NCBI RefSeq assembly: GCF_000174435.1
Contig: NZ_ACJN02000003.1
Span: 388,263 to 452,262, forward strand
DNA: 64,000 nucleotides
Origin: Desulfonatronospira thiodismutans ASO3-1
GTDB taxonomy: Bacteria; Desulfobacterota; Desulfovibrionia; Desulfovibrionales; Desulfonatronovibrionaceae
Direction: 5' to 3'
Made by a program: the position numbers and the translations under genes. Under the pieces are notes generated by a model. The model did not search any database. It was not told where the DNA came from and saw nothing but the letters and a program-made list of their open reading frames with translations. Shown piece by piece: positions 58,143 to 63,730 of the stretch. Numbering within the stretch: the first letter of the stretch is position 1; each line of letters starts with the position of its first letter.

Positions 58143-58550
58143 TTATTCAGGAGAAATAATTTTAACAGTTGGGAAATAGGTCTGGTACCTGTTTTTATCT
58201 CGTGTGATTAATTCAAGATCTAATACAGCGGCTTGTGCCCCGATAAAAAAGTCCGGCAATGGGGACTTCTTTGCACCTTTATGCTTTCGGTATTTAAAAA
58301 AAGCTTTACCAGCAAGGAAGAGAGATTCCCTGGGTATTTCCAGCATCTGAAATCCGCTCTTTGAAACAGCAGCTTCCAATTCCTCAATCTTATTAAATCC
58401 GATGGAAATTTCGGAATATATAATTTGGTTAATGTATAAAGGAGCATGATGGGCATATTCAGAAAGAGCAGCCTCCGACCATTCAGCCCAGACAGGATCA
58501 TCAAGAAAAACATCCAGGATAATATTGGAATCAACAAGAAGACCTTTCAT
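58143..58550 (-). CDS. PIN-domain toxin
   Basis: 135 residues: MKGLLVDSNIILDVFLDDPV (Asp7 active-site candidate), IYSEISIGFNKIEELEAAVS (Glu near 46), PLPDFFIGAQAAVLDLELIT (Asp near 100) and TRDKNRYQTYFPTVKII. This is a VapC-type RNase. Its ATG overlaps the antitoxin stop (ATGA). Second PIN-type module in the window and unlike the first. Confidence 0.88.
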   Translation of the reverse strand: MKGLLVDSNIILDVFLDDPVWAEWSEAALSEYAHHAPLYINQIIYSEISIGFNKIEELEAAVSKSGFQMLEIPRESLFLAGKAFFKYRKHKGAKKSPLPDFFIGAQAAVLDLELITRDKNRYQTYFPTVKIISPE

Positions 58551-58774
58551 AAATCATCTCTGGTGAGTGCCATAATTTCGTCTGTGGTCATTTTGACAGT
58601 CGCCACCCCGCGAAGTTTTTTAAACTTGCGGGTTGCCCGGGCTGTTCCTTCTCGCTTTACCAAAAAGACCCGGTCTCCCTCTTGTAAAAAATCAATCTCT
58701 GTATCCGGGGTTATCCCTAATTTTTCCCGTATATTAACTGGTATCGTAACCTGCCCTTTTGTCGTCACCCTCAT
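58547..58774 (-). CDS. AbrB/MazE-type antitoxin
   Basis: 75 residues. Swapped-hairpin start: MRVTTKGQVTIPVNIREKLG, then ITPDTEIDFLQEGDRVFLVK. The C-terminal tail (LRGVATVKMTTDEIMALTRD) would bind the PIN toxin. GGAGGG lies four to six bases before ATG and overlaps a dyad at 58783-58802 that is a likely self-operator. Confidence 0.88.
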   Translation of the reverse strand: MRVTTKGQVTIPVNIREKLGITPDTEIDFLQEGDRVFLVKREGTARATRKFKKLRGVATVKMTTDEIMALTRDDL

Positions 58775-58872: not shown

Positions 58873-59664
58873 TCATCCCGGGCCTTGAATATGCAAAGGA
58901 CGCCGCGCCACGAAGAACTCATAGGCGTAATAATCGCAGTAGAGGCGGTGCATCTCGGGCTCCCGGGCGAGCTGGTCCAGTATGGCCGAGACCTCATCAT
59001 CTCCCGCATACTTGCTGCGCAAACTTTCAATGCGCGCCTCCATGGGTGTGTAGAAATCTTCCCACCATGCTTCATCCGGCAACGTGAAGTGCCCCACAAG
59101 ATCGAATCCACAGTCCAGTATAGATGCCACATCGTCGCCCACCCACCCCATGTCTGGATAGTCCAGGTCGAAACCGGCCTTCACTTCGGCAGGCGCATTC
59201 TCCTTGCGCCAGACCGCATCGGTAAAGACAAGGTAGCCCCCGGGGCTCAAAAGTCCATAACAGAGGTAAAGGGCGTGTTGCAGTCCGATGCTGTAGAGCG
59301 CGCCCTCGGACCAGATAAGATCAAAACTTCCAGGCGTTTGCTCCAGGCGGTCCATATCTTTGACCATTGCTGTGACGCGTTTCGAAAGCCCGTGCTGCGC
59401 AATAGCCGCCTGCAAATGTTCAATGCTCGGCGTATGGCTGTCAACGGCCACTATTGAACCTGGCGTCAGTTCGGCAAGGTAAAGGGTCTGTCCCCCGACC
59501 CCGCAACCCAGGTCAAGGATCGCGGGGGACTTGGACAGGTAGCGGCAAAGGGCCAGGGCCCTGACGGCACTGGCGCGGTTGCCGGGGCCCTGGCGGGGCA
59601 GGGTCTCGTAAACCTCGAAAAAAATCTCCCAGAAGCGGGGGGCTGGTTCATTCATAGCGTTCAT
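58873..59664 (-). CDS. SAM-dependent methyltransferase
   Basis: Class I methyltransferase, about 263 residues. Motif I: AILDLGCGVGGQTLYLAEL; acidic loop IVAVDSHTPSIEHL; motif IV-like SFDLIWSEGALYSIGLQHAL; then LLSPGGYLVFTDAVW. The target cannot be told; the closest pattern is ubiE/SmtA-like small-molecule enzymes. TTG 59682 and ATG 59664 are both possible; ATG is preferred. No ribosome site was found; a dyad covers the start. Confidence 0.8.
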   Translation of the reverse strand: MNAMNEPAPRFWEIFFEVYETLPRQGPGNRASAVRALALCRYLSKSPAILDLGCGVGGQTLYLAELTPGSIVAVDSHTPSIEHLQAAIAQHGLSKRVTAMVKDMDRLEQTPGSFDLIWSEGALYSIGLQHALYLCYGLLSPGGYLVFTDAVWRKENAPAEVKAGFDLDYPDMGWVGDDVASILDCGFDLVGHFTLPDEAWWEDFYTPMEARIESLRSKYAGDDEVSAILDQLAREPEMHRLYCDYYAYEFFVARRPLHIQGPG

Positions 59665-59685
59665 ATTTGACAATTTAGTCAAATA
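59664..59685. promoter_or_regulatory. Dyad at the methyltransferase start
   Basis: TATTTGAC (59664-59671) and GTCAAATA (59678-59685) are perfect 8-bp arms around AATTTA. Its position at the ATG suggests an operator or an RNA hairpin that hides the start. Confidence 0.45.
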
Positions 59686-60098
59686 TTTTTTTGAATATTT
59701 ATGGTTTCATCCAGTTTACAAAATAAACATGCCTGCACTAATAATTATTATTAGAATAGGGTTATATAGCAGGTTTTGGACTTCCCATAGTGGAATCTAA
59801 CTGAACAACGAAGCAGCCTGTACCAAAAAAACCTTCTCTGGCAAGGGAAAGATGCAGACTTCATTTTCGACTAAAATGCGCTTCGCTGTCCTTCGCAACA
59901 TTAGCTGGAAAGCGGGTGCTCCGCACACACGGCTTTAAAGTATAAAGAACCTCAAAAAAGCGAGCTCTAATTTCAGCCAGAAAGCCTTGCATGGCTTCGG
60001 CCAGATGCAACTGTTAACTTTTTTCAAGATTGTTCATGTCCAGACTTTTCTACAGGCGCATATAAGCATATAAAAATGAGATTACTGGAAGGTGTTAT
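59686..60098. other. AT-rich intergenic region before PilZ gene
   Basis: No gene was recognised. Base composition becomes AT-rich here and stays so through the PilZ gene. GGAAGGTG is the ribosome site before ATG 60099. A segment GCGCTTCGCTGTCCTTCG near 59879 resembles a piece of the 2.6-kb element. Confidence 0.45.
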
Positions 60099-62063
60099 AT
60101 GAAAAGATCAGTTAAAGAAAAACAAATCAGCATTTTTCTACATGCATTGTTTGAATCCAGTGACATTGCGCCTGCTTTTAAAAAAAATCTTAACCCAATC
60201 AAGATTCTGACTCATATTTATTTATATAAAACAGGATGCGCTGACATAGCAAAAAAAATCAAATTTGATAGTTTGCCAGCTACAAAAAATAATGAAAGAC
60301 ACATGGTAAATAAAATATGTAACTTCTTTAAAGATTCAGACCCTCACCAAAAAAACGATGTGGCAAGCTATCTCGTTCAAAATTACCCAGACGAAGTAGA
60401 CTGTCTGTGTCCTGATTTTATTTTAACAAAAATCAGAGCAATCATCAAAAAAATCAACAAGAATGACTTACATGAAGACCATGTGGAAAAACTGGTTTGG
60501 GAACATATCTGCGATAAAAAAATATATCATAAATTTTTGGACAATATCTTATTGTTCATTGAAGATAGAAGCATCGAAAACAACAATCTCGCTAAATTTT
60601 TGACCACCAAAAAAGCTGACCTGAAGGAAAACACATTTTACAAATGGATCATCAGGCAGAATTTCATTCAAAAACTGGATTATGCAGAGCTGGGACTGGC
60701 TCATTCCGCCAAAATGGCTGAATTTGTGGATCAGGACAAAATGCTTGGCACCATTTGCTTTTTAGACTTTGCCACCGAAGATTTAAAGCAAAAGTTTCAC
60801 CATATGCTGGTAAAAAAATATAAAACTTCAAAGATGTCAGACATGTTTTTAGAGCTTTTTTCTGAAAGCAGACAAAAAAATGAACTATTCGGAAAAGCAG
60901 TTGTAATATTTGGATTTTTTATCATTATGTTTAAGTTTGATGATTTTGTAGATTTCTACCAGACCACCATGGTGCCTGACGATCACCGGAATGACTGGAC
61001 AAATTACAGCTACAAAGACTATTGCTACAAAATCCTGGAAGGTTTTCAATCTGGAATAAAAAGCGATTATGTGTCGTCACATTTCAGACTGTCAACATTA
61101 AAAGACCAGGATACCATGCAAAAGATATCTTTTGTTTTCTGGAAAAACACCTTTTTAAAAGAAAAAATCAAGCATGAATGTTGCCCTGTTCAGTCTGCCC
61201 AGAATAAAAAAATCCATAAATACAAAAGCATAACAAAAGATAAAATAAATGATCGCAGGTTATTAAAAATAATCGAACATTTGTTTTCTAAAAAGATAAA
61301 TATTTCTGTTTATTCATTTAAAAGTAATGATCCATATATTAATCTGGAATGTACGCCTCTCAAAATGGAAAATGATGGATTTCTGATTTTTTACAACAAT
61401 AAAGATCTAGAATTTAAAATGGATAGCATACCGTTTTCTGTAAAATGCAGATTCCATGTATTTGACGACTCTCTTAACAAAAGATACTATGTTTTTGAGA
61501 CTGAATTGATGCATGTTTTTCCTGCAGACGACCATAACATATTAAAACTGAATTATCCTGTAGAGTACAATTTATCTGATAGACGTCTGGATAGATATAT
61601 ACCTGCCCCCAGTGATATTTACACCCTGTCAATCTGGGAGGCGAACAACGAACAACCAGAAATGACTATACAAAAGCCCCCCTTATGCAGAAACTTTAAG
61701 CAGGACAGCATGAAAATCCTGAATATTTCTTCTGGCGGTATCAGGCTGTCTTTTAAAACTCACCACCTTGAAAAAATTGAACATGAATTCGCCTTGCAAC
61801 AGGCATACATTTTTAAAATCACCCTGAGTTATCATGACAAGCCTGCTGACATATATCTTACTGCTGTTGTCAGAAATCTCAACTGGTTTCATGAACCTGA
61901 GCCTGAAATTGAAGTCGGCTTCCAGTTTATCCAGGAAGCTTTTTTCAGCTCCAACAAAAAAATTTCCTGGTCTGACATCACTAAAAAAGGATCATGGCAT
62001 ATAGGATCATGGATTTTTGGAAACAATATGGAAAAGTGCAAAGATTTTTCCGTTAAAAATTAG
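60099..62063 (+). CDS. Large AT-rich protein with C-terminal PilZ domain
   Basis: 654 residues. A YcgR-like segment from about 405 (INISVYSFKSNDPYINLECT, SIPFSVKCRFHVFDD) leads into a PilZ domain: R495-R-L-D-R499 fits RxxxR, and N542-I-S-S-G-G547 fits D/NxSxxG, the c-di-GMP-binding pair, with VGFQFI as last strand. The first ~390 residues are helical, Lys- and Phe-rich, and not recognised; a hydrophobic patch (AVVIFGFFIIMFKF near 267-281) may be a buried helix or membrane contact. Codon use is much more AT-rich than the neighbours, a sign of transfer. Possible role: c-di-GMP receptor for motility or surface control. A hairpin repeat follows 20 bases after the stop. Confidence 0.75.
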   Translation: MKRSVKEKQISIFLHALFESSDIAPAFKKNLNPIKILTHIYLYKTGCADIAKKIKFDSLPATKNNERHMVNKICNFFKDSDPHQKNDVASYLVQNYPDEVDCLCPDFILTKIRAIIKKINKNDLHEDHVEKLVWEHICDKKIYHKFLDNILLFIEDRSIENNNLAKFLTTKKADLKENTFYKWIIRQNFIQKLDYAELGLAHSAKMAEFVDQDKMLGTICFLDFATEDLKQKFHHMLVKKYKTSKMSDMFLELFSESRQKNELFGKAVVIFGFFIIMFKFDDFVDFYQTTMVPDDHRNDWTNYSYKDYCYKILEGFQSGIKSDYVSSHFRLSTLKDQDTMQKISFVFWKNTFLKEKIKHECCPVQSAQNKKIHKYKSITKDKINDRRLLKIIEHLFSKKINISVYSFKSNDPYINLECTPLKMENDGFLIFYNNKDLEFKMDSIPFSVKCRFHVFDDSLNKRYYVFETELMHVFPADDHNILKLNYPVEYNLSDRRLDRYIPAPSDIYTLSIWEANNEQPEMTIQKPPLCRNFKQDSMKILNISSGGIRLSFKTHHLEKIEHEFALQQAYIFKITLSYHDKPADIYLTAVVRNLNWFHEPEPEIEVGFQFIQEAFFSSNKKISWSDITKKGSWHIGSWIFGNNMEKCKDFSVKN

Positions 62064-62082
62064 ATAGTTCAACCTGAAAGAC

Positions 62083-62154
62083 GTAAGCATTCTGGGGGTC
62101 CTCGATAGTGATAACTGGCACTAGGCTTGATTCCGGCACCCCATGAATGCTTAC
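62083..62154 (+). repeat. GTAAGCATTC hairpin, compensated variant
   Basis: GTAAGCATTC (62083-62092) and GAATGCTTAC (62145-62154) pair perfectly. Compared with other copies (GTAACCATTC/GAATGGTTAC) both arms differ at one matching position. Core GGGGGTCCTCGATAGTGATA then ACTGGCAC agrees with 49581-49639. Confidence 0.75.
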
Positions 62155-62257
62155 TGAAAGACTACCACAGACGCCGGGCGAAAAATTCCGGAAAGCCCCC
62201 CGGTGAAACAGGAAGAAATTTCACTGGACAAGCGCGAAATGTGAATTTAAGACGTTA

Positions 62258-63560: not shown

Positions 63561-63730
63561 GTAACCATTCAGGGGGTGCCGTAATCACGCCTCTGGCGTG
63601 ACCGGGGACAGTCCCGCACTTATTTTTTTCTGATGGACAATTTTTGGCTGTTGGCGTTGGAAAAATAAGTGCGGGACTGTCCCCAGGCCTGGTGCCAGCA
63701 ATCAATACCGAGAAACCCCTGAATGGTTAC
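63561..63730 (-). repeat. GTAACCATTCAG hairpin with nested insert, second copy
   Basis: GTAACCATTCAGGGGG (63561-63576) and CCCCTGAATGGTTAC (63716-63730) enclose TCACGCCTCTGGCGTGA (63585-63601) and the GGGGACAGTCCC palindrome (63604-63684). CTGGTGCCAGCAATCAATAC after it corresponds, inverted, to the core of the short copies. Confidence 0.8.
63604..63684. repeat. GGGGACAGTCCC palindromic element, copy 4
   Basis: GGGGACAGTCCCGCACTTAT and ATAAGTGCGGGACTGTCCCC are inverted arms around about 40 bases (TTTTTGGCTGTTGGCGTTGG). Near-identical arms to 33754-33831. Confidence 0.8.

Follow-up and report, generated by a model that had tools for sequence, protein, structure and literature searches.

A lineage-restricted N-terminal domain on a predicted YcgR-type PilZ protein of Desulfonatronospira thiodismutans

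A 654-codon gene of Desulfonatronospira thiodismutans ASO3-1 (60099-62063, + strand, in the 64,000-nucleotide stretch of DNA analysed here, "the window") encodes a large N-terminal domain followed by what appear to be the PilZN and PilZ domains of a c-di-GMP receptor. Judged from sequence comparison, the combination is a lineage-specific, conserved and uncharacterised architecture of a well-known receptor type. We suggest, with a probability of roughly two in three, that the protein is a cytoplasmic receptor of the YcgR/MotI type in which a soluble N-domain stands in place of a membrane anchor and acts as a partner-binding output module. The open reading frame is preceded by GGAAGGTG, which resembles a ribosome-binding site ahead of the ATG, and full-length homologues were found in other genomes. 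When the gene was compared with the copy in a congener (G006), the C-terminal part gave a dN of 0.29 and a dS of 1.84 (dN/dS about 0.16), which indicates that this part is under purifying selection; dS was saturated in the N-terminal part.

The PilZ module and the domain ahead of it

Both PilZ binding motifs predicted for the C-terminal part of the protein are present. R495xxxR499 (RRLDR, 61581-61595, +) is the sole RxxxR match in the protein, and N542xSSGG547 (NISSGG, 61722-61739, +) is the sole match to [ND]x[SG]xxG; the two lie 43 residues apart, a long spacing. An alignment of 13 relatives, long and short, shows no change at R495, R499, S544 or G547, and the motifs are therefore not a product of chance. 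The sole plausible Pfam match of the protein is to PilZ (PF07238; E 0.002, residues 539-611), which at 18.9-21.6 bits falls short of the curated cutoff of 22.5 and leaves RxxxR outside the matched stretch. Motifs, invariant residues and this weak match together delimit a PilZ domain with a C-terminal extension at residues 495-654 (61581-62060, +).

Ahead of it lies a probable PilZN barrel of the YcgR N-like type, at about residues 386-494 (61254-61580, +). No PilZN model matched the protein in the Pfam scan, which fits the report that public profile HMMs miss divergent PilZN domains (PMC11800159). Its assignment comes instead from alignment with a family of shorter PilZ proteins of about 350 amino acids, to whose soluble part residues 390-654 align with an hhalign probability of 99.8 and an E value of 2.7e-29. 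Against the PilZ domains of the window's own genome the C-terminal half scored weakly (probability 11), a result set aside since that alignment contained wrong-strand rows. In addition, when an AlphaFold model of the full protein (pLDDT 42.7, from a 6-row alignment) was searched with Foldseek against 350,542 chains, the best matches were MotI/DgrA (5vx6, E 9.9e-5) and VCA0042 (1yln), which are both PilZN-PilZ proteins. Because confidence in the model is low (pLDDT 43), these matches support but do not prove the assignment, and the C-terminal half (about 386-654) is probably a divergent YcgR-type PilZN and PilZ module. To this extent the original prediction of a PilZ-type effector with a YcgR-like double barrel is supported. 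The binding motifs suggest that the protein probably binds c-di-GMP. The same genome has 19 GGDEF matches above the family cutoff and nine PilZ matches, the 654-residue protein included, so that both the ligand and further such receptors are to be expected in the cell.

The front of the protein had been described as 390 residues matching no nameable family. The absence of a match was confirmed by profile searches, but the length is nearer 360 residues (1 to about 360, 60099-61178, +, the boundary being approximate), since about 386-490 belongs to the C-terminal module. Nothing credible was found in Pfam for residues 1-394 or in NCBIfam for the N-terminal 360 or so; PHROGs returned chance-level matches at most, and comparison of the protein with PDB sequences gave no credible relative and one meaningless match in one search. 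A 25-residue match to a phage late-transcription coactivator (PF16805, phrog_254; E 0.04-0.19) is absent from the homologues scanned, and we rejected it as chance. The N-domain likewise does not align with the family of about 350 amino acids (hhalign probability 0.1). Structure prediction, suggested as a check together with the profile searches, yielded no fold: the pLDDT was 43-45 throughout, the N-domain of the homologue from S. aerotolerans reaching 44.9 (6-row alignment), and a Foldseek search with the N-domain model, which returned no match, is made meaningless by the low confidence of that model. Both AlphaFold models (pLDDT 43-45) place helices first, followed by a beta-alpha-alpha-beta-beta-alpha stretch. 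G217, Y241, K242, T243, F250, G272, F316, R330 and W348 are invariant in an alignment of the window's protein with the G010 and Solidesulfovibrio members. Hydropathy in a 19-residue window peaks at 1.79, at residue 263 and so within the N-domain, and nothing at the N-terminus resembles the transmembrane-like segment of the short PilZ family.

Relatives and their genomic neighbourhoods

A single-sequence search of 101 genomes recovered full-length homologues of about 600 amino acids and many matches confined to approximately residues 448-648. Of 348 genomes in the class, 19 were positive with a profile of the N-domain; these belong to four genera, Solidesulfovibrio among them, and to one order (Desulfovibrionales). 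In a sample of 395 genomes taken from the phylum, the profile found the window's own genome only. The architecture is thus new in being absent from the databases, as had been proposed, but it is not peculiar to this gene. Wherever the frame of a member was reconstructed, the PilZ module comes after the N-domain, and intact copies exist in 13 further members of the set covering the order. The copies in G006 (L032:3296-5271) and G010 (L033:6427-8432) each have one frameshift beside a homopolymer, which may be an assembly error, the alternatives being a pseudogene or phase variation. Five other genomes of the window's genus, represented by small or incomplete assemblies, lack the N-domain. The tree of the C-terminal domain is compatible with the long form having arisen once, though support is weak (48/82). 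In the literature searched we found no paper pairing Solidesulfovibrio with PilZ, and an earlier mention of the architecture in a central review of PilZ-related domains (PMC6989793) is possible.

The PilZ proteins of about 350 amino acids are spread over the Desulfovibrionales, and the majority begin with a transmembrane-like stretch that has no comparable counterpart at the front of the long proteins. Short, membrane-anchored forms occur in a conserved mnmG - pilZ - corC (CBS) - lnt run at L006, L007, L009, L014, L027 and L028 (checked with Pfam in L014 and read from the sequence at the other loci), in several Desulfovibrionales genomes. There the PilZ gene keeps company with genes for a CorC-like protein and an apolipoprotein N-acyltransferase. 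The window's own genome also encodes a second short paralogue, soluble and 284 amino acids long (L002:1477-2331, contig C2), near a histidine-kinase-like gene.

No neighbour of the long form is conserved across all genera. At six loci in Solidesulfovibrio, a run of MoxR, DUF58, DUF4381, vWA/TPR and BatD genes encloses or immediately adjoins the gene. The parts of this run were confirmed by Pfam at L037, L038, L065 and L066, and the open-frame layout at L039 and L063 is consistent with it. In G045 (L034:1374-7624) the gene overlaps an RR-HK gene, which is followed by genes for a receiver protein, an RR-GGDEF diguanylate cyclase and an RR-PAS-HK hybrid kinase. The window, G006, G010, G025 and G033 showed no shared neighbour of the Bat or two-component kind.

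An AT-rich replacement segment

The original prediction held that the base composition of the gene departs sharply from that of its flanking genes, and it does. With a GC content of 0.337 (GC3 0.365), the gene is the lowest of the 45 ORFs of at least 120 amino acids in the window, which average 0.532 with a standard deviation of 0.051. The runner-up is a nearby PIN-domain gene. At 58143-58774 (-), adjoining the AT-rich segment, lies an AT-rich pair consisting of a MazE/AbrB-type antitoxin and a PIN-domain toxin; with this pair beside the segment, the locus has the look of a variable site.

Comparison with G006 delimits a replacement segment of 2.5 kb (59660-62162, GC 0.35): the flanks match up to 59659 and again from 62163/62198 onwards. 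The flanking DNA is 91-93% identical, the methyltransferase and NadA proteins encoded there are 88% and 94% identical, and the two genes past NadA are 98% and 89% identical. Between the same flanks G006 has, in place of the PilZ gene, a metallophosphoesterase-like gene, identified from its sequence rather than by a family search. Of this phosphoesterase-like gene the window retains 37 bp from the 3' end, at 62163-62199 (94.6% identity to G006 C114 1565-1601). G006 carries its PilZ copy on a different contig, next to a gene for a UvrD-like helicase; the best match to that helicase gene in the window's genome is only 28% identical. The two PilZ proteins are 57-58% identical, whereas neighbouring genes reach 88-98%. 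Given these non-syntenic copies and this disparity in identity, the gene sits in variable regions; either related bacteria have passed it between them, or it has changed at a much higher rate than the genes around it. It stands by itself in the window, as an accessory gene.

The horizontal acquisition that had been proposed is therefore borne out in part. The lineage-specific replacement segment and the high divergence from the congener's copy speak for it; a distant donor is not indicated, as every homologue detected belongs to the same order and searches of phage, plasmid and viral-contig collections gave no similar sequence. Moreover, the gene is also below its surroundings in GC in G006, in G010, in two of three g7 genomes and at three Solidesulfovibrio loci, so that low GC is partly a trait of the family and no proof of a recent AT-rich donor.

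The gene had also been placed alone between repeats, which is correct for its downstream side. A REP-like inverted repeat, a member of a genome-wide family, forms a hairpin at 62083-62154; its arm has about 199 matches in the genome with up to three mismatches, against one for a reversed control, and nine in the window where 0.24 would be expected. Upstream, however, the closest matches are more than 10 kb from the gene. REP-like repeats also occur at 63561-63730, and another palindrome core, GGGGACAGTCCCGCAC, is present in 23 identical copies. A perfect 24-nt inverted repeat at 63601-63687 gave an Rfam match to mir-4484, an animal microRNA; the match is below cutoff and almost certainly spurious.

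Proposed mechanism, alternatives and known systems

In YcgR-type proteins, binding of c-di-GMP rearranges PilZN against PilZ. We infer the binding, conformational switch and output of the present protein along the same lines. The membrane anchor of most short Desulfovibrionales relatives would have been replaced by a soluble, largely helical domain of about 360 residues. c-di-GMP, which the GGDEF proteins of the genome could supply, would be bound between the RxxxR and NxSxxG motifs and shift the PilZN and PilZ barrels against each other, and this shift would reposition the N-domain, the putative partner-binding output module.

It is conceivable, though we doubt it, that the protein is strictly a YcgR/MotI flagellar brake or clutch, its PilZ module binding stator or rotor at high c-di-GMP and its N-domain adding affinity or localisation. 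The nearest solved structures found by Foldseek are indeed MotI/DgrA and VCA0042, and E. coli YcgR, a flagellar brake, is a precedent (PMC11800159, PMC10140304). However, a matching fold does not reveal which partner is bound, no flagellar gene adjoins any long member examined, and the Solidesulfovibrio members sit with MoxR/Bat genes.

Those same genes raise the alternative, in our view an unlikely one, of a family-wide adaptor for MoxR AAA+/vWA (Bat) envelope machinery. The N-domain would then be a new output or adaptor fold, found only in Desulfovibrionales so far, that binds MoxR or vWA proteins and lets c-di-GMP switch the contact and so control the machinery. The association at the six Solidesulfovibrio loci argues for such a role, but no such neighbour exists in the window, G006, G010, G025, G033 or G045, and the best MoxR match of the window's genome is on a different contig from the PilZ gene. 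No paper linking PilZ, MoxR and aerotolerance was found in the literature searched. We consider the MoxR/Bat machinery a candidate partner in Solidesulfovibrio only.

That the gene is instead an acquired, AT-rich and fast-evolving accessory in decay, with no cellular role, strikes us as improbable. Its low GC, its 58% identity to the congener's copy against 88-98% for its neighbours, its non-syntenic position, the frameshifted copies in G006 and G010 and its absence from the five small or incomplete assemblies of the genus would fit decay; but the 654-codon frame is intact, the binding residues are kept, dN/dS in the C-terminal part is low and intact copies persist across the order-wide set. 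Hardly tenable is a degenerate GGDEF-like N-domain regulating or sensing the nucleotide, a resemblance suggested by eye by the predicted beta-alpha-alpha-beta-beta order at about 216-280 and a conserved hairpin glycine, since no member scanned had a Pfam GGDEF match and hhalign of the N-domain and its middle part against the genome's own GGDEF domains gave a probability of 0.1-0.2%, in a comparison set slightly blurred by stop-free rows read on the wrong strand (L071 and L077) that remained in the alignment.

If the reading as a cytoplasmic receptor with a soluble output domain is right, an undescribed domain family is attached to c-di-GMP receptors of sulfate-reducing bacteria, and a single order employs the same PilZ module in three settings: tethered to the membrane, without such an anchor, or joined to a large soluble domain. 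It would also connect c-di-GMP with the MoxR/Bat operon in a way that can be tested. The general understanding of PilZ receptors is unchanged by this protein.

Lineage-specific extra domains on YcgR-type proteins have a precedent in the spirochaete YcgR-GAZ and YcgR-NpzN, which, like the present protein, keep the binding motifs (PMC11800159). The arrangements differ: GAZ is inserted between PilZN and PilZ, and the pentahelical NpzN domain follows a long transmembrane helix (PMC11800159). In the 654-residue protein the additional 360 or so residues lie ahead of PilZN, and it has no comparable transmembrane segment. YcgR, MotI (DgrA) and VCA0042 resemble its C-terminal half, with both binding motifs, and include the best Foldseek matches; they differ from it in the roughly 360 extra residues ahead of PilZN, in the flagellar context, none of which was seen here, and in that the present protein is too divergent for the Pfam PilZN models. 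To the short Desulfovibrionales PilZ proteins, residues 390-654 are homologous over nearly the whole length, with the same invariant residues; in most of these proteins an N-terminal transmembrane segment takes the place of the long form's soluble N-domain, and they occupy a different genomic site, often the mnmG-pilZ-corC-lnt run.
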